Shown here in pieces: positions 7,867 through 58,800 of a stretch of 64,000 bases of DNA. The DNA is taken from the NCBI RefSeq assembly GCF_964204645.1, contig NC_134031.1, forward strand, positions 2,029,001 to 2,093,000, read 5' to 3'. The notes below the pieces were generated by a model that searched no databases, had not been told where the DNA came from, and worked only from the letters and a program-made list of their open reading frames with translations. Origin of the DNA: Tubulanus polymorphus. Lineage: Eukaryota; Nemertea; Palaeonemertea; Tubulaniformes; Tubulanidae. Position numbers and translations under genes: made by a program. The first letter of the stretch is position 1. Each line of letters begins with the position of its first letter.

Positions 7867-42950
<35,084 letters not shown>

Positions 42951-47225: not shown

Positions 47226-50200
47226 TCACACGTCTTCATCCACATTTTGTTCGGGTAGAGACTCTCCCGCTGCATCCAGAGCTTCACCGCTTTCCGTGTG
47301 GTTGAAAAGTGATTTGTACGCTGCAAAGAAAAGAGCGTGACTATAATCTTTGCATAAATCTAATTTTTCAAAGTCGGTCCCGAATGGTTGGAAATCGTCG
47401 TATAGGAGCCTCCCCAGGCAGTGATCGCGATGCCAGACACCCACAATCAGCAACCGATATTGTTCTGCCTATGCCCGGTATACAAATAGCCTAGTCTTCT
47501 GGGCCCAGAAACACAGTCGTGACCTCAGTGAAAAAGTGGTCTAAATCATGAGGCCGGTTGTTAGATTAGCTCTAGTTGGTAAAAGAATGGTCTTCAATCT
47601 AATTCACGAATGTACAGCTGGACCCTGAATAGCAAGATTGCAAGTAAATTCATATTCTACCCGAAATTAAGCCTCGGTTCGAACAGACGCAGCGATATAA
47701 ACAGGAGTTAGCGAATTGAACAGCCGCGTTTAGTTCTTAGTGAACCGTCTCGGCACCGTGCCGGTCGCGTGGGTTATTACGTATGATACCAACAGAGCGA
47801 TAGAGGTAGCAGTGAATCTTTTCCATACTTACCCGGTTCAGGTGTTGGATCGTTCGAGCGGTGGTAACCTCCAGCCGCCTCAGCCACACAGCCGGGCATA
47901 CACGCCAACGACTCTACAAAACCTTCTTTATCCGTCAACCAGTACGTTTTAAGCATCCCCTTACCCTAACGAACGATAAAGAACCTTACGAGGATAAGAT
48001 ATGGAGATTTTCTCACGTAATGTCGTCAAAAAGTCGGAAGATTCTGGCCTACCTTGAGTTCCATTTCGCCTCGAAATTCAAACTTGAATACCGGATCCAG
48101 AGCCAGGCCACCGTAGGTCACGTGACTGCAATGGATCCGACCGGCTGGATTGAAAAAAAGTTTACAAATACAGAGAGGTCCAGTGATAAGGTTAGTAGCA
48201 AACATTGCCTAGAGATCGGTGGGACGCACGAAAAACACCTATAATGAAGTATGCCTTTTACTTGCATCCAAAGTGGAAAATGAAGCCCCGATATCTGTTG
48301 TTCTTAAGATCTGTAACAAAATGATTTAAAAATAATTTTCACATGACTTTGTACTTACGTTGGCCGGAGGCTTCCATACGCGAGGCCGTATTCACCGTGT
48401 CTCCGAACAGACAGTATCGCGGCATCTTTGAACCGACCACACCGGCAACCAGAGCACCTACAAACAGTCAGCGAAAACGTAATTCGATCAGTTAATTTCA
48501 TTAGCGATCAGCGAGAGACGAACGAACGGAAAAATTCGCGGCGGATTCTATATTTTTGTTGTCAATACGCGGTGAAGGTTATTTGATTATTTCAGCTCAA
48601 GGCGATGTCTTTAAATGCTAAGGACGACGTTCTGTGGGCATTCTGTAATCACAAATACCACCCTGGACCCAGTTCTACAGTTGTGAGTTATGATTTGACT
48701 CTGGGTTAAATCATTGAGAATGAATTGATTTTAACTCAGAGTTAACCCTAAGTCACGACTGTAGAAATGGGTCCTAGACGTTATATGCATCGGATATCCG
48801 ACCAAAACCCGCAGAATCAGGTATACTGGCACATCCTCAAGTTCGGGGCCACATACTATAAAAGATCTATCTTGATCTGATTTGATTTATTTGACGATTA
48901 TCAAATTGAAACCCATACCTGTGTGTATTCCGGATCGAAGCTGCATCTTTGTACCGATCATGTGCGGGATTTCCACGTGTGACACGTGATGCAGTAAATC
49001 TAGAGCCATCGATGCTATTTCTGTCAGATGTTTCCTTGCGTTACGTTTCGGCACGCCTGTAAGAATCAAGGAGACGAGTGTATGACCACAATAACAATAT
49101 TCCTGAATATAACCGGATATAGTTGATATGTTAAATGAACAACTAATAGCTCAAAGAATACTGTATTCCTGAAAATGACTATAAGAATATAATTGAAACG
49201 TTGAACTACTAGCTCAAGGAATACAGTATACCTGAAGATGACAATCAGAGTCGAAATGTTGAATGAACTACACTAGCTCAAGAAATACGGTATTCCAGAA
49301 GATGACACTCAGGATATAGTCGATATGTTGAATGAACTACACTAGCTCAAGAAATACGGTATTCCAGAAGATGACACTCAGGATATAGTCGAAATGTTGA
49401 ATGAACTACACTAGCTCAAGGAATACAGTATTCCTGAAGATGACTATTAGGATATAGTCGAAAAGGAATACAGTATTCCTGAAGATGACTATTAGAATAT
49501 AGTTGAAACGTTGAACTACACTAGCTCAAGGAATACAGTATTCCTAAAGAAGACTACAGTAAGGTATTACAGTCGAAAAGATGAATAAACTTCAAGCTCA
49601 CGGAATCTTTTCAGACTCGTCGGACATGTCGAAAAAGCACAAGGCCGCTATATCTACGTGTTCCAACATTAACGCTACATGTTCCGCTACAGACTGACCT
49701 GATACGATCATATACGCGTCGCCGATTGTTTCTACTTTGTATACGTCATAAATACCGATCCGAGCGTCGAAACACATGTACAATCCGTTCAGCATCTGAA
49801 TCACCTGAAACATTGACAACGACGACGTTAGTTAGATCGAAATCGCCTTGGACTGTCTTCAATCCAAGCTATTATTGTGTAATGACCTGAGATGATGTTA
49901 TAACAAATACCTGTATAGGCGTACAGTTCGCTGATATCTTCGTGAAGCCGACGATATCGGAGAAATAGACGGTCGCGTCGTTGTAGGCTTCAGGTATGAC
50001 GTGTCGACCCTCTTTCAGTTCTTCGGCGACGATTTTCGGCAACATTTGAAACAGCATCGAATTAGTGCGGTGTCGCTCCTGATTGAAAACCTTCGTCTGG
50101 TCGGATAATGTATTCGCGTAGCGCTGTATGTCCGACATGATGGCTTTAACGAACGTGATCACCAACGGGCAGATAACGATAACCAGGATAAACACGCTTA

Positions 50201-52138
50201 AACTAACCGTCAAGTTTTTGACGTCGCGTTTCAACGAATTGTTCAGTTTAACTAGAATCACGTTAGCCACGTGACGCTGCACCTCATTCAATATATCGAT
50301 ATAGATAGTCATATTGTCGAACCAGTACGTGCTCATTTGCCAAGACGGCTGGTGATTGGTCAGATTGTTTCGGCTGATTTCGTTGCGCATGTTTGAAATG
50401 TGATAGGTGAAGTTGTTCGTCGTGATGTACTTCTTTTTTTCGCCGTCGAAAATACTTTGAATTTCGGGTATGAACTTCTTGGCGTTTTGCCAGTTACCGG
50501 AGCCGACGTTGTGCTTCTCTAAATACCACAGATAATGGCTGTCTATTTCGAACGACCCGCGCGAGTAGAAAACGCCCCCTAGCGTCCTTTCGATACCCAT
50601 ATCTTCTTTACTCATAACTAACAGCTGATAGGCGACCAGCGACCGCCAGACCTCGCCGTCTTTCGATTTTTGTATGGACATGTACATCCAATCGATGAAG
50701 ATCTTTATCGCGTTCGAATAGAACAGAATTTCGCGATAGGCGTCCGTAGTATCAGGCTCCAGGTAGGCGCGGTGGTTGCGGATGTACTGCAGGAAATCGT
50801 CGCGCGTGTTAAACTGCGCTAATCCGACGGATTTATCTTCGCTTTTCGGCCATTGCGTCAGACTTTCGAACGCCGAGTCGGTGTCCGGGTAGCGTTCACG
50901 TAGAAACATACGCGTTTCGGCTCCCAGTGTGCTCAGATACAGCGCAGTCATGTCCCGTTCTCTCTGTAGGTTGTGGATGACGACCGCGGTCTCCATGCTG
51001 AATTTGATCGTATCGCGTACGATCGTTTTCGCGTCGTTGTCTTTAGAAATCGTCGACAAGTCGATGACGCACATGACGCAAAGCGCCATGATCGGTATCA
51101 ATGTGAGGATCATCATTTTGGTCATCTGAATTTGTTTACCTGGCGATGACGAAACGCTGACATTCATTTTTACAGGATTTAGGGAGTTTGTAACAAGGTT
51201 GAAACTACTAGCATTTCAATTGGCACGTTTTTAGTTAAGAACTTTATCAAATAAACCAACGTTTTTGGTCTTATACATAAATTATGGAACTGTAGAACCA
51301 GAGTCCAGTTCAATGCAGTATATAAAATATATTTCTAAATCCAAAACGGTATCCACCTTCATTGTGCAACTGGCATCAGGAGTTTATCTATAAACTCGAC
51401 ATAATATTTGGGAATTCATGTTGGCATGAAACATAAGCCTTTTAGAATGCAAAGAAAATGAGCTCCGAGTCGCTTGCACGGATTTAAGACCAGTGTAAGA
51501 GCGACCTAGTTCTATACTAAATCTAACAACGTAATAATCTTAACAATTGAGACTGAAACAAGGCCTTGAAGAATGAGAAATTGCGACATGTGATTTCGGC
51601 TACGCGGTTTTGGAATTCTATCCATGCATCAAAACATACAGAAAATACTTGTATTTATGGTATTTGATGGATTTCCATATAAATTAGCCAATTGTTTCAC
51701 TTCCCATCATTAATTACGTGAAATTATGTTCCGCTGTTGTGCGTAATGCATTGACTTGGCGAACGACCTATATCTGTGAAACTGTAGAACCCAGGGATGC
51801 AGCATAGGGCAACGTGTACCATGGCTTAGATTTAAGACCGGGATAAGACCATCTTAGTTCTATAGCAAATACAACAACTTTAGAACAGTTTTCCTTTGGA
51901 CTTAAGAAGTCGTCACGACTGCGCAAAAAGGGCCAGGGAGCCACAGACCACAACATACAGAAGTACCTGCTTTTGTGAGCGGGCTAACACCGCATATTCG
52001 AGTCTTATCTTCCGCGTCGTCAAGAGCATCGGTAAAACTATCATCTTGATTCGTTCGTTTCGTCCAGAAAACCAACTGTTTCTCATTGCTATCGAGACTA
52101 CCGTCGGTGTGAAAACTTTCAGCGTTAATCAGAGACAT
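47226..52138 (-). CDS. NIT-domain receptor guanylate cyclase (NIT-GC A)
   Basis: Predicted membrane guanylate cyclase making cGMP from GTP. Coding exons on the minus strand: 52138-51967, 51139-49911, 49804-49699, 49056-48919, 48457-48359, 48144-48053, 47965-47833, 47320-47226. They sum to 2064 bases (687 residues) with every phase matching. Order: cytosolic N-tail; TM1 about 64-86; NIT sensor about 95-345 with conserved [19 protein letters not shown] and [17 protein letters not shown]2 about 371-392; coiled linker ending [10 protein letters not shown]; cyclase domain from about 445. Metal aspartates are D452 (YFSDIVGFT) and D496 (GDAYM). Guanine-selecting residues are E492 (KVETIGD) and C564 (YCLFGDTVN). 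Transition-state N571 and R575 are present, so it should be catalytically competent as a homodimer. Exon 1 has a strong acceptor (TTTTGTCAG) 12 bases before the ATG, implying a 5' noncoding exon. An extra C-terminal tail of about 60 residues, rich in acidic residues, is absent from its neighbour B. NIT-domain cyclases in other animals have been linked to NO/nitrite sensing; the ligand here is inference. Confidence 0.93.
48665..48774. mobile_element. 110 bp palindromic MITE, family R1, in an intron of NIT-GC A
   Basis: GGACCCAGTTCTACAGTTGT and ACGACTGTAGAAATGGGTCC are inverted ends; the inner GACTCTGGGTTAAAT and TTAACTCAGAGTTAA also pair. It lies between the exons at 49056-48919 and 48457-48359. 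Confidence 0.65.
49085..49565 (+). repeat. Tandem array of about 68 bp monomers, family R3, inside NIT-GC A
   Basis: Six to seven copies of a monomer with GGAATACAGTATTCCTGAAG, then GACTAT ... ATAGTCGAAA, then CGTTGAATGAACTACA and AGCTCAAG. Two adjacent central copies are almost identical; the outer ones are diverged or cut short. It lies in the intron between exons 49804-49699 and 49056-48919. GGAATAC/GTATTCC and GACTAT/ATAGTC are two hairpin stems in each unit. Confidence 0.85.
51775..51936. mobile_element. R1-family element next to exon 1 of NIT-GC A
   Basis: Left TGAAACTGTAGAACCCAGGG and right AAGTCGTCACGACTGCGCAA fit the family ends; the core has ATAGCAAATACAACAACTTT. It begins about 30 bases past the first coding exon, inside intron 1. 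Confidence 0.5.
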
Positions 52139-52148
52139 TGTGATGATC

Positions 52149-53241
52149 CTGACAAAATAGAGACAAAATATTATACGAGTTCGCAACCTGATCGTACAAA
52201 TACTAATCATAATGTTAATATTAATTATTTAGAAAGGAAACAAAAAATTATGTAAACTCAACCGCCGATCACACAACTATAGCTGTACTTCGATTTCAAA
52301 ATCAAAACCCCTGTTTCGCTCCCGGCAGGTGTGGTGGGTTTGTAAGGGACACTCAAATCAAAAAAATCAAACGAAATTTACCAACCAAATAAATAACAGG
52401 GTCAATCCCTATTTCAAGATAGAAAAAACATTTTAATGATTTATTTCATCATCAATTAAATCGAACAACACTACAAAATAAAGTACACGACAGAATTAGT
52501 AGATTGATGATAGCGACCCGAACAGAGCCATCAAGGCTGTACTAACTATCAGAGATAAAATCAACGATTATTATTATACTTAGATGAATTCGAATCAATC
52601 AGGAAATCGTAAAAATCAAAATCGTCGATTAATTAAACAGGACGCAAATCTTCTTCGAACAAAGGTTGAATAGACGACTAGCTGCAGGAAACCGGTGCTA
52701 TACTCGACTACTCAATCCCAGTACGCGATTTTATATCAGAATTCAATTTCGTCAAGTGAACTTACGTACGATTTACATCGGTGATATTCCTACTTGCATC
52801 AACACATCATACACGCATCACTGGAAAAATAACTCGAGTAATGACTGGTTAGTAATTCACTAATACGGGCTAGGAGAAAAAGTCAACTAAACCTATCAGT
52901 GCGCATGTCAGAAAATAACCAGATGCCGTAGACACCCTACCGGCTAACTAATTTTCATCTAATAATAATCATCTATACTTGGCGTGTTAATTAATCAACG
53001 ATGGGAACTATCTCGTGACTAAACGACGATCCCGCTGATATTTACGAAATCGTTTTTTCGCAAATTCGAAGTCGATCGATGATTACGAGGAGTGACTTAC
53101 GCGCGATCGAAGCGCCATGTTTTACTTTTTGCGAAGTATGGATATTTCGTTTACTCTTGCGCGTAAGCTCGGCTGCACCAGTGATATCTTTTATCGAGGA
53201 ACCTTTTTTTCGTTTCGAGGGAATCACGACTGCAGTCGAAA
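52149..53241. promoter_or_regulatory. Shared divergent interval between the two NIT-GC genes
   Basis: About 1.1 kb separates the two start codons on opposite strands. It is AT-rich with no coding exon and no repeat that I recognise; it contains the predicted 5'UTR intron of A. By position it must hold the promoter of B and probably that of A. I see no clear TATA box or named binding site, so this is a positional call only. Confidence 0.5.
53101..53240 (-). other. Probable 5' noncoding exon of NIT-GC A, antisense to the start of NIT-GC B
   Basis: A consensus minus-strand donor (GTAAGT) begins at 53100. A strong acceptor for NIT-GC A (TTTTGTCAG) ends at 52149, giving a 952-base 5'UTR intron with the ATG 12 bases into the next exon. 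The upstream limit of this exon is not visible, so the far boundary is a guess. If right, the A transcript starts within or next to the 5' end of NIT-GC B. The match of one good donor to one good acceptor is the only evidence. Confidence 0.45.
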
Positions 53242-56200
53242 ATGAAGTCGAAAGAAAAAAAAGTGGCCTCGATCTTGGCCGACGATGACACGACAATGTC
53301 TACCGATTCACAGGAAAGTTCCGGAGTCGCCCTCGATCAGTCGATTCGTAATACGCTCAATGAAACGGGAGACGCCGGGTGGATGGCTCTGTGTCGCGGG
53401 AATCCGCTGACACTTCGAGGTAAATTTCGAATCTAATATTTTCAATGATTTCAACGATTCATTGAAGAAAGAATTATGATTGGTTACTAATGACGTCTTT
53501 TTAATTCTCAATGACTCGGACGATTCAGTAAAAAGTTTATAATGACAACCTTCTCATTATCATTGACTTCATCGATTCAGTAAAATTATGATAAGTAACA
53601 ATGACGATGAACTTTTCAATCTCAATGACTTCAGTGATTGAAATTATGATTCGTTTTCAAAAAATGGTACGACCTCAACGATGATTTTGTAGAAGCTGCC
53701 ACAATGAGAGACGGTTGTCAGACATTCTCTTACCAATTTTTTCCTTTTCAGGTAAAAGAGTTCAAATGGCGAAGATGATGATATTGACGTTGGTTCCGAT
53801 TTGCGCTTTGACGGTTATTTGTATCGTCGATTTGGCGACGATTTACGCCGAAAACCGCGGACAGTACGACATCCGTGATAACATCCGGTTCAGCACCGAG
53901 ATCGGAACCGTCGTACACTACCTGCAGAAAGAGCGGGACATGACGGCGCTTCATTTGAGCACGATGGGCGCCGAGACGCGAATCTTTCTCCGCGAGCGGT
54001 ATCCGGACACCGATAAGGCTTTAGACAAACTGTCTAAATGGCCTGAGAAGACTTCCGGTACTATTTCGCAGTTCGGAAGCGCTAAGGACTTTCAAACTTT
54101 TATCAAACGCCATCGCGATAAACTGGAACCGGGCGAGACGGACACCTTTGCCGAGATCAAGTTCTATTCGGACGCTATCAAGATCTTCATCGATTGGATC
54201 TACGCCTTCATACAGGAATCCAGCGACGGTGACCAGTGGCGCAACCTAGTGGCGTATCAGTTGCTAGTTCTATCGAAAGAAGACATGGGAGTTGAACGCA
54301 CGCTAGGGGGCGTATTCTACTCGAAGGGCTCGTTCGAGAAATACAGCGATTATTTGTGGTACATGTCCAAGCATAACACGGGTATCGGCCGTTTTAAAGC
54401 GGCTCAGCGATTCACTGAAACAGTGGCGGATTTCTTCAACGAAGAAATTCCCAAACACACGAAAAACTTTACCGAATCGATTCGACGAATGAGAATGGAC
54501 ATCAGCCGTAACAATATGACCGGCCGAGAACCGTCCTGGGAAATGAGCACTTTCTGGTTCGATAACATGACCATCTACATCGACATCATGTTTCAGGTAA
54601 TTTTTCCCCTTTCTAACGATTCATAAGTTTTAATTTGGTGTCAAAAGAGGGATGGGTGACAACTAATCGCGCTAGAGGTTTTAGTTTAAAAAATGTTAAA
54701 ATCTGTCCGATTAATGCGGGACCTGTTGGACCGCCTCAAAATGGCGCCTGGAAACTTCCCTATCACTTTGATAGCTTCAGAAGTTTCTTTTTGAACAATC
54801 AAAGCACGTTGTTGGTCTATGCTATGACTCTTGGTTCGTTCCCGCGTCAGAGACATAATTCCAAAATAGATCTTAAGCCATGCCTAAACCATCCGGAACC
54901 TGAATCTGCGACCACGAATGTGGTTCAAGTCCAATCATAGGCAGGTTTCGACTGGTCTCTGCCGATTCCGGAATACTCTAATGGTGGGTTCGTTTCAACC
55001 ACGCCTTGCCAATTACGGAATAGCTTAACCTGTAACCTGATAGAAGCGGCTGGTAGAGAGTTTGGAAACCGGAGTTACATCTTAAACCGGTGTAATCGAA
55101 TCGAAACCCGTTTAGATTAGTCAATTCTAAACCCCAACCAACGGCGACAAGCATCCAAATTCGTCTTCAACTTTACTCACACTCATTCGTATTGTAGGTG
55201 CAAGTTAAAATGGCCGATGTCATCCTACAATCGCTGGAGGTGTCTCTAACCCGCGATCTAAAAGAGATGAGCGTAAGCATCAGTCTGTTCGCCTTGGTGG
55301 CGCTCATCTGCCCGGCCGTGATCACATTCGTGCGAGCCATCATGAACGACACGCAGAAATACGCGCTGAATTTGGCCGATCAGACGAAAGCGTTGGCGAA
55401 AGAGCGCAGACGCACCGACTCGCTTCTCTACCAGATGATACCGAAAATGGTCGCCAAACAACTGAAGAAAGGCCAACACGTTAGCGCCGAATCGTACAAC
55501 GAATGCACGATATATTTTTCGGATATTGTGAGCTTCACGAAGATATCGGCGGATTGTTCCCCGATGCAGGTGATATCCATGTTGAATAGTTTGTACATGT
55601 GTTTCGATGATAGAATCGATTGTTATGACGTGTATAAAGTTGAAACTATCGGCGACGCTTACATGGTTGTCTCAGGTAAACATAGATAGCATGACGAGGC
55701 AATTCAATAGAAAATGTCTTGTTTTTCAGATAATCTAAAATCAGATAATTAGAATGAAAAAATGAAGTCCGGAAAGTTTCCTTGATGTAGTAGGGCCTTT
55801 TTTTTTTCAACGTTAGTTCAGTATTTCCGAAGATGACTATTAGAATATTGTCGAAACTTTGAATAAACTACAACACTAGCGCAAGGAAACTTTCTGAACC
55901 CATTTCTCATTCTTATTGTGGTATTTTATTTATATTATCGTTATGCAGCACAGATTTAGTGTTTTTCATCAGTGTTTTTTTCAAAGGCTAATAACAGCCC
56001 CCAATAAGGCTCCAATTGAAGCATATGTAATTTCAAACTTTTGCCCATTCATATACACAAACCAATCATACGTTTTAAGATGATATGATTATGATATGAC
56101 TAAGATCACACGTTGCTTCTTTTATGGAATTGCTCCGCTAGCTAAAATTGCCTTTAGAAATAATAACAGCATTCATTATTTCAGGTGTTCCGAAACGTAA

Positions 56201-57424
56201 TGGCAGACGTCACGTGACAGAGATCGGCACGATGGCGTTGGATCTGATGCATCATATCGGACATTTAGAGATTCCTCACCTTCCTGGTCACAGGATGCAA
56301 CTCAGAGCCGGTTTACATTCAGGTACGGTCGATGGTCGATATCCACCTGCAGGGTCACGAGATTCTTAAGCCGGGCGTAAGCCGGCCTTGCGACCGCTTG
56401 CGACTCACTGCGACGCGACTCACTGCGACCGCCAGCGACGATCGCGTCGCAACGACCAACCGACCTACGCTACCTTGCGACTGCCAGCGATGGGTTGCGA
56501 CTGCCAGCGACGCCAGTCACAATGAGTCGCACATGTTCTACTTTCTGCGACGCGACGCGACCGTCGCAACCGATCTACGCGCTCTTGCGACTGGGAGCAA
56601 CTAGTCGCACAGAGTCGCTGACAATCGCGTCGCAACCGACTTGCGTCCCCACTTGTGACGCAACGCGACGATCGCGTCGCGTCGCAAGGTCGACCTACGT
56701 CCGGCTTACATTTGCGTGTTCTATATATAAATGTGCTCATTTTTCAATCGAAGGCCCTTGTGTGGCGGGAGTTGTCGGATCGAAGATGCCCAGGTACTGT
56801 CTGTTCGGAGACACGGTGAACATGGCCTCCCGAATGGAGTCGCATGGCCTTCGTAAGTAAATAACTTGTATCTCGATTTCAAACATCAAATATCTTATAA
56901 GTTCCTGTTATCAAACAGCAGATTGCGTCGAGTTATCGCTCCGACTGCCCTGGAATTCACGTCATACTTTGGAGAGAGTTTATTGGGACCGCGAGATCCG
57001 AGGCAACCGTGCAGTCTACTCATTATAGAAATATACAAATATTGGCCCTATATCTATAGAGAATGCTCTTTATAATATTTCCAGCGTCTAAAGTGCACAT
57101 AAGCGAATCTACCAGAGATTTACTTTACTCCGAATCTGAATACACGATTTCTAATCGCGGCGAAGTTGAGATCAAGGTAATGTAGTTGTTGTCGGATAGA
57201 TGGCGCGAGCGGGGAACTCGAGATTGACTCGAGAAATTAGTCATCCAGTCGTTACTAGAAATGAAGATCGATCAGTGTTCGTTTGGTTGATTTTCATCGT
57301 CTTTTTCTTACAGGGAAAAGGCAAAATGAGGACGTATTTTTTGGAATCGAAGGCTAATCTTGAAGAGTTGTTGCCGTGTCACGGGGGCTGCGTGGTGCTT
57401 CCATTGGCTGAGATGTACTCGTAA
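53242..57424 (+). CDS. NIT-domain receptor guanylate cyclase (NIT-GC B)
   Basis: Paralogue of the divergent minus-strand cyclase. Coding exons: 53242-53419, 53752-54596, 55198-55675, 56185-56322, 56754-56852, 57085-57176, 57314-57424. Total 1941 bases (646 residues), phases consistent throughout. Layout: cytosolic tail 1-60; TM1 about 65-88; NIT domain about 100-335 ([34 protein letters not shown]); TM2 about 368-390; linker with [11 protein letters not shown]; cyclase domain. Catalytic residues: D450 (YFSDIVSFT), D494 (GDAYM), guanine-selecting E490 and C562, transition-state N569 and R573. All are present, so an active guanylate cyclase is expected. The last four introns and the intron before TM1 sit at the same codons and phases as in gene A. 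B has an intron at residue 341/342 (FQ|VQV) that A lacks, and lacks A's intron after residue 467. The acceptor of exon 5 is ATCGAAG, weaker than usual, but phase and homology fix it. It ends shortly after the cyclase domain. AATAAA lies at about 57818. Confidence 0.93.
55800..55905 (+). repeat. Single copy of repeat family R3 in an intron of NIT-GC B
   Basis: AGTATTTCCGAAGATGACTA ... ATTGTCGAAACTTTGAATAA, then ACACTAGCGCAAGGAAAC. It lies in the same relative intron (before the GVPKRN exon) as the array in gene A. Confidence 0.6.
56376..56705 (+). repeat. GCGAC/TCGC-rich degenerate tandem repeat in NIT-GC B
   Basis: Irregular repeats of TTGCGACTGCCAGCGA, GCGACGCGACT and GATCGCGTCGCAACGACC. 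It is GC-rich in an AT-rich intron (between exons ending 56322 and starting 56754) and rich in self-complementary GCGAC/GTCGC words. Confidence 0.7.
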
Positions 57425-58565: not shown

Positions 58566-58800
58566 TCAATCTGAGGCCTGGGGTCCAGCCCACAGACACC
58601 CTGAAGCCTAAGTCAACGCCTCGGACACTCTGCAGCCTGGGTCCGACCCACAGACACTCTGCAGCCTGTGTTCAGCCCACGGACACTCTGCGGTAGCCTG
58701 GGTCCACCCCACGGACACTCTGCAGCCTGGGTCCAGCCCACGGATACTCTGCGGCAGCCTGGTCCAGCCCACAGACACTTTGCAGCCTGGACCCTGTGCC
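58566..58800 (+). repeat. Minisatellite, about 33-36 bp unit
   Basis: Seven or so units of CTGCAGCCTGGGTCCAGCCC followed by ACGGACACT. The minus-strand open frames over it are periodic by-products. Confidence 0.85.

Follow-up and report, generated by a model that had tools for sequence, protein, structure and literature searches.

The window analyzed here is a 64,000-nucleotide stretch of the genome of the nemertean Tubulanus polymorphus (contig NC_134031.1; C7:2029001-2093000 of the assembly). It contains a head-to-head pair of genes, which we designate A and B, encoding receptor guanylate cyclases with a NIT domain (NIT-GCs). The pair is ordinary for its family, and the surrounding family is more interesting than the pair. 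We consider it fairly probable that A and B are complete NIT-GCs, competent to act as homodimers, and that eight half-site paralogues at other loci are independently evolved, obligate subunits of alpha-beta heterodimers. With somewhat less confidence, we also favor the broader reading that the NIT cyclases independently evolved an alpha/beta system resembling that of soluble guanylate cyclase (sGC). In such a system a heterodimeric surface sensor of nitrogen oxides would make cyclic GMP (cGMP) only where its subunits meet, A, B and two other members would be self-sufficient, and the alpha-like state would probably have arisen twice. Heterodimer formation has stronger support in these eight paralogues than in A and B, which look self-sufficient.

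Pfam analysis of the spliced proteins, which the preliminary description of this stretch had proposed, matched both NIT and Guanylate_cyc in A and in B. The NIT matches span residues 111-351 of A (E = 4.8e-23) and 113-350 of B (E = 3e-24), both over the cut-off, and the E values for Guanylate_cyc were 1.5e-63 and 4.6e-68, respectively. Each protein is comprised of a short N terminus, a first transmembrane segment (TM1), the NIT domain, a second transmembrane segment (TM2), a signalling helix and the guanylate cyclase domain. The NIT domain (about 240 residues) sits inside a loop of about 280 residues, with one hydrophobic segment on either side of it in the hydropathy profile; Pfam and hydropathy thus agree with the order that the preliminary description had read. 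The signalling helix lies directly after TM2 and carries an ERxRT motif, and across it Pfam HNOBA gave an end match that passed the cut-off in B but fell short of it in A. The claim that the catalytic residues are intact also held: at the seven catalytic positions both proteins have D-E-D-R-C-N-R, and a KGKG motif is present in each, placing both half-sites within one chain. Because of this, A and B appear to be catalytically complete, and each can, as far as its sequence goes, act as a homodimer. The best match for the cyclase domain of A in the PDB is GC-A; a PDB sequence search with the NIT segment of A gave no credible match. Across the 12 NIT-GC proteins of this genome (see below), 55 N-glycosylation sequons fall within 3,375 residues of inter-TM loop, compared with 13 in the 3,716 residues outside it, an excess that places the NIT domain most likely outside the cell. 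By these features A and B are ordinary members of the known animal NIT receptor guanylate cyclase family. No tblastn-confirmed relative was found in bacterial or archaeal genomes or in viral contigs, a result of little weight for NIT proteins of bacteria.

In the assembly (268 Mb, 77 contigs) 13 NIT matches were found and assigned to 12 genes, a minimum number because the search scored its best candidates only; a search for COX1 gave no match. Besides A and B, the family occupies single loci at C7:6.33M, C1:29.35M, C2:0.84M, C2:23.80M, C4:2.62M and C10:13.10M, two loci arranged head to tail at C2:28.814M and 28.819M, and two that converge at C2:1.009M(+) and 1.013M(-); these genes are named below by contig and position. 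Each of the ten paralogues was represented by one model, hand-picked from up to three templates, the model of C7_6.33 (C7_6) merging several aligner runs. Both conserved NIT arginines are kept in all 12 proteins, as are the Glu and the Cys at the purine positions of the cyclase domain, which mark these enzymes as guanylate rather than adenylate cyclases.

The active site of class III cyclases lies between two chains. We scored seven site positions: two metal Asp residues and the phosphate Arg, the Glu and Cys for guanine, and, from the opposite half, an Asn and an Arg. This revealed four complete genes (A, B, C1_29 and C2_23), four that we term alpha-like (C2_0.84, C2_28.814, C2_28.819 and C7_6) and four that we term beta-like (C4_2.62, C10_13.10 and the C2_1.0 pair). 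The alpha-like genes keep the metal side and have T or S for the Asn and K or I for the Arg; the beta-like genes keep the Asn and Arg and have G for the first metal Asp. No gene among the 12 lacks both halves. The three alpha-like genes on C2 have lost the KGKG motif, which all four beta-like genes keep. In the rhodopsin cyclase structure as described in PMC7384201, the triphosphate and metal are bound by one subunit, which also supplies the phosphate Arg, and the second Arg and a Lys come from its partner. The half-site motifs can already be read in the raw tblastn output for the ten paralogues and hence were not made by splicing. Since each of the eight genes has lost exactly one half-site, they likely encode obligate heterodimer subunits.

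This pattern was compared with that of the other guanylate cyclases of the genome. The 14 genes with neither a NIT nor an HNOB match, which we call receptor guanylate cyclases (receptor GCs) on that criterion and no further domain criterion, are all complete at the seven positions, the model of one of them (L040) lacking its last exon. Half-site loss in 8 of the 12 NIT-GCs and in none of the 14 receptor GCs differs at P = 0.0003 by Fisher's test, with relatedness ignored. We then screened the 54 cyclase columns that are invariant in the 14 receptor GCs and the four complete NIT-GCs, allowing one gap per column. All eight half-site genes keep 31 of these. Seven are changed in all four beta-like genes; at six of the seven no alpha-like gene is changed, and at the remaining one a single alpha-like gene is. 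Five are changed in all four alpha-like genes and in none of the beta-like ones, and no column is changed in all four members of both classes.

The half-site NIT-GCs might instead be dead regulators or decoys (pseudo-cyclases) of the complete cyclases, including A and B, and not alpha-beta pairs. Loss of a half-site would fit any noncatalytic role. A dimerizing decoy would also need a conserved cyclase domain, and two of the four half-site pairs compared are more alike in the cyclase than in the NIT domain (78 versus 53% identity for C2_0.84 and C2_28.814; 72 versus 37% for the C2_1.0 pair). In the other two pairs the cyclase domain is not the better kept (76 versus 84% for the C2_28 pair; 77 versus 85% for C4 and C10). 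We regard this alternative as unlikely, given that each gene has lost one half and none both, and nothing would favor retention of the other half in a decoy; moreover, the guanine Glu and the Cys are kept in all eight genes, and the alpha-like and beta-like genes are equally numerous (4 and 4).

About equally doubtful is a second alternative, which concerns the pair itself: that A and B act mainly as an A:B heterodimer that senses nitric oxide (NO), expressed from a shared head-to-head promoter. The arrangement of the genes, with 1,103 bp between their start codons, is consistent with this notion, as is the finding of Jokura et al. (2023), reported in a commentary (PMC10584369), that photoreceptors of Platynereis require NIT-GC1 for NO signalling. 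Additionally, NO synthase matches were found at two places in the genome, which together with nine matches to HNOB, the sensor domain of sGC, indicate that NO signalling is likely present in this animal. However, both sites are complete, so that neither protein needs the other, and the duplication is old, the two genes differing in their introns. An obligate pairing of A with B was dropped as a candidate because both genes are catalytically complete. NO itself might conceivably be a direct NIT-GC ligand. We also noted a receptor-type guanylate cyclase at C2:7.10M (L040) approximately 30 kb from the NO synthase locus at C2:7.13M.

A third alternative, which we consider very unlikely, is that the split entered the NIT-GC genes from sGC alpha and beta by domain exchange or gene conversion. 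The cyclase domain was inspected for eight of the nine HNOB matches (C11:11.87M was left out), HNOB and cyclase being linked by nearness and strand; none of the nine lies at a NIT-GC locus. As a positive control, the sGC genes of this genome were examined in the same manner and showed the split that is known for sGC. Two of the sGC genes are beta-type (G for D, with Asn and Arg kept) and two are alpha-type (D kept, with T and K for Asn and Arg); three other HNOB cyclases are complete at the site, and one (L034) has lost the Cys, Asn and Arg and kept the metal Asp. One beta-type and one alpha-type sGC gene adjoin on the same strand at C5:3.893-3.904M (L033). The assignment of sGC alpha and beta residues to the two half-sites draws in part on the rhodopsin cyclase (PMC7384201) and in part on general background on sGC. 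At several positions the NIT-GC and sGC genes of this genome have changed to identical letters (D to G, I to V and A to K; N to T and R to K), a point in favor of this alternative. The cyclase family gave 112 exon matches in the genome, and the loci behind them were retrieved save for several on C10 and one on C11. The first tree of the cyclase domains took 18 of the 21 non-NIT cyclase domains, omitting the divergent L020, L022 and L023; the last tree also omitted an adenylate cyclase (L019) and the long sGC-like L034, added five receptor GCs, and excluded five catalytic positions and their neighbors.

In the last tree, sGC separates from the receptor GCs and NIT-GCs with support of 99/97. The beta-like NIT-GCs form one clade (100/99), as does the alpha-like trio on C2 (100/99), and both lie on the receptor side, with C7_6 grouping with A, B and C1_29 (96/94). 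A clade of the beta-like NIT-GCs with sGC beta was rejected (P = 0.007 in the last tree and 0.02 in an earlier one), and so was a clade of the alpha trio with sGC alpha (P = 0.003 and 0.0001, respectively). Thus, even without the catalytic columns, these genes are placed with the receptor GCs, and GC-A is the best PDB match for the one beta-like (C4) and the one alpha-like (C2_28.814) cyclase domain tried. On these grounds, with no HNOB match and with the sGC clades rejected, the half-site NIT-GCs are judged not to be members of sGC, and their split probably evolved independently of it. A single clade of all eight half-site genes was also rejected (P = 0.018), and so was one of the four alpha-like genes, both on whole proteins (P = 0.013) and on the NIT domain alone (P = 0.045); the alpha-like state thus probably arose twice. 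Least credible of all is the idea that the half-site genes are decaying duplication pseudogenes showing this pattern by chance: only about three independent loss events would be required, but none of the ten spliced paralogue models contains a stop (partly by construction, as the aligner penalizes stops), the ratio of nonsynonymous to synonymous substitution rates (dN/dS) is 0.07 in the sole half-site pair with a computable dS (the C2_28 alpha pair, dS 2.2; whole-protein dN ranges from 0.13 to 0.43 in the other three pairs compared), all 14 other receptor GCs are intact, and the eight genes share the 31 kept columns of the screen. The half-site genes therefore appear to be under constraint rather than to be pseudogenes.

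Several points weigh against the reading of the half-site genes as alpha-beta subunits, or against the way that we count them. Homodimers of sGC beta are reported to be active (PMC5225109), and a lost half-site therefore need not abolish activity. The classes used in the column screen were fixed beforehand from known residues, and two of the five columns changed in the alpha-like genes lie in or next to C-terminal exons that are uncertain in this class; for C2_28.814 we saw a better last exon than the one modelled. C7_6, counted as alpha-like, has an altered KGKG motif that keeps its first Lys, and C1_29, counted as complete, has Glu for that Lys, which weakens the label. Gene counts overstate independence, since there were about three loss events: on the tree, loss of the Asn and Arg requires three changes and loss of the Asp two, and in each case one of these is that of sGC. 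The split is known from one genome. With the cyclase domain alone, a single alpha-like clade was not rejected (P = 0.058 and 0.09). Likewise, the best trees do not unite all 12 NIT-GC cyclase domains, C2_23 standing beside the receptor GCs (85/80 and 89/87), although one clade of all 12 was not rejected (P = 0.30 and 0.29). Finally, AlphaFold predictions for A exon 2 and B exons 2 and 3 (three rows) were nearly all helical, with a mean pLDDT of 46, too poor for judging the expected NIT fold of two four-helix bundles.

In the mechanism that we propose, a small nitrogen-oxide ligand would bind extracellularly, between those NIT helices on which the two conserved arginines lie; the role of these arginines in ligand binding is taken from PMC7400543. 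The ligand-induced change would reach the cyclase via TM2 and the coiled helix, whereupon its dimer would close and make cGMP. Homodimers of A and of B would form two full sites each, with A:B mixed dimers possible and not required. The half-site proteins would form one site only, within an alpha-beta mixed dimer. NIT-GCs are candidate animal nitrogen-oxide receptors, and a sister set with complementary half-sites predicts which subunits share a cell. The split also predicts their biochemistry, with a subunit alone dead and the mixture alive. If this is correct, it would represent a further origin of heterodimeric animal guanylate cyclases beside sGC and ODR-1/DAF-11, in which several residues changed as in sGC.

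Two members of the family deserve separate mention. In C2_23 (L014) the NIT segment is divergent (LERGTTVRYE) and the intron pattern differs, in addition to the position of its cyclase beside ordinary receptor GCs; this gene may be a separate fusion or else a member that has diverged strongly. Both genes of the converging beta-like pair on C2 have lost the second metal Asp as well as the phosphate Arg, and their NIT domains are only 37% identical.

We next describe the gene models of the pair. Gene A runs from its start codon at 52138 to a stop codon at 47226 on the minus strand (687 residues, 8 exons), and gene B runs from 53242 to a stop codon at 57424 on the plus strand (646 residues, 7 exons). 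Both genes are real, and their stop codons fall where the preliminary description had placed them. The start codons are separated by 1,103 bp, as expected from the two full, divergent paralogues about 1.1 kb apart of the preliminary description. Both genes were spliced by hand; every junction is GT-AG, the phases agree and both proteins are open, which bears out the consistent splice phases claimed there. The internal junctions were reproduced by a spliced aligner written for this analysis, with other family members as template, except for the junction before the last exon of A, which is absent from the aligner's model; exon 8 of A and the outer ends of both genes are from the hand model only.

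Exon 1 of A (51967 to 52138) encodes the start codon ATG, the N terminus and a conserved motif before TM1, and ends at the phase 1 donor CAG/GTACTT. Its segment aligns with the family motif C-x-GNPLTxxGKRIQ. An upstream in-frame ATG is present in the same open frame, and the start of A is therefore not certain. Exon 2 (49911 to 51139) holds TM1, the whole NIT domain, TM2, the signalling helix and the start of the cyclase with the metal Asp (FSDIVGF). The cyclase continues through exon 3 (49699 to 49804), with the guanine Glu and second metal Asp, exon 4 (48919 to 49056), with LRSGIHTG and the phosphate Arg, and exon 5 (48359 to 48457), with the Cys, Asn and Arg. Exon 6 (48053 to 48144) is followed by exon 7 (47833 to 47965), which carries the KGKG motif and TYWL, and by exon 8 (47226 to 47320), a C-terminal tail with the stop codon that has no counterpart in B. 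In B, exon 1 (53242 to 53419) encodes the start codon, the N terminus and the conserved motif, and exon 2 (53752 to 54596) encodes TM1 and most of the NIT domain, ending at a phase-0 intron. Exon 3 (55198 to 55675) holds the end of the NIT domain, TM2, the signalling helix and the cyclase with FSDIVSF. Exon 4 (56185 to 56322) carries LRAGLHSG, exon 5 (56754 to 56852) carries more of the cyclase, and exons 6 (57085 to 57176) and 7 (57314 to 57424) complete the gene, the last with the KGKG motif, the C terminus and the stop codon. Exon limits are those of the hand model. By these coordinates the 1,103 bp between the start codons (52139 to 53241) are a candidate shared regulatory region; a promoter scan of this region relied on a bacterial consensus and is meaningless for an animal locus.

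Repeats were seen in the introns of both genes. An intron of A contains a minisatellite at 49115-49556 with a 69-bp unit in about 5 copies, which includes the palindrome AAGGAATACAGTATTCC. A similar single unit was seen by eye near 55820-55890, in the B intron at the same position (after VSG), and dense short GCGAC-type repeats were seen, also by eye, at 56370-56700 in another stretch of B intron.

Comparison of A with B showed 370 of 636 aligned residues to be identical. By the NG86 method, dS is 1.99 and dN is 0.36, and 65 of 148 fourfold sites are identical. Because synonymous sites are near saturation, the duplication is taken to be old. Five intron positions are common to the two genes, and each has one intron absent from the other (CTPIQ/VIQ in A and IMFQ/VQVK in B), A having its extra last exon as well. 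The intron of A also occurs in C7_6, C2_0.84 and both C2_28 genes, and is absent from B, C1_29 and the other five genes; that of B was found in none of the other 11. The preliminary description had the pair arise by inverted tandem duplication, a proposal that is weakly supported. Whole proteins join A and B as sisters with support of 88/90, which falls short of the starred level, and a grouping of B with C1_29 is disfavored (P = 0.055). In contrast, cyclase-only trees leave the order of A, B and C1_29 unsettled, one of them pairing A with C1_29 at 95/65, and both B and C1_29 lack the intron kept in A. An inverted tandem duplication thus remains likely, if weakly supported, and would mean that B and C1_29 lost the same intron separately.

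Elsewhere in the window, a tandem array at 58576-58790 has periods of 29 and 61 bp, and a long TA-type microsatellite at 36846-37280 is read as an open reading frame (ORF) of alternating I and Y. Two minus-strand ORFs, at 18586-19023 and 35428-36495, each end by eye with a TM segment and then a short W-containing stretch; they are perhaps four-TM claudin-like proteins.

NIT receptor cyclases of insects and sea urchins have been in print since 2006 (PMC1592074), and Moroz et al. (2020) described NIT-GCs from placozoans and other animals and proposed nitrate, nitrite or NO as the ligand (PMC7400543); the statement that these enzymes are a known animal family is accordingly borne out by these two sources. 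Like the animal NIT-GCs described there, those of T. polymorphus have the NIT domain outside, the signalling helix and a receptor-type (ANPR-like) cyclase inside, and the two NIT arginines, and the TM-NIT-TM order is that of the placozoan proteins. Unlike the passages of those accounts cited here, which mention no complementary half-sites, 8 of the 12 genes of the present family have lost one half of the site. No description of complementary half-sites in NIT-GCs was found in the literature searched, which left out most subscription papers and so offers weak evidence of novelty. NIT-GC1 and NIT-GC2 of Platynereis are likewise NIT-GCs of a marine animal, an annelid, and NIT-GC1 is the one needed for NO signalling (PMC10584369, PMC11412693). 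A derived NIT-like cyclase has been reported from a ctenophore (PMC10073611). The bacterial NIT domains of NasR and of the chemoreceptor PA4520 have the Pfam NIT match in common with A and B; the recombinant NIT domain of PA4520 is reported to bind neither nitrate nor nitrite (PMC6381276).

The closest parallels to the half-site split lie outside the NIT-GCs. According to PMC5225109, ODR-1/DAF-11 of Caenorhabditis elegans forms a receptor GC that is an obligate heterodimer, each chain of which gives residues to one catalytic site. In this it resembles the eight half-site NIT-GCs, and the part of that account used here mentions no NIT domain for either chain. The two splits would have separate origins, in our view, our trees being drawn without nematode sequences. 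The alpha and beta subunits of sGC show the same half-site split as the half-site NIT-GCs, with several identical substitutions, and differ from them in having an HNOB sensor in place of the NIT domain and TM segments and in occupying a separate branch of the cyclase tree.

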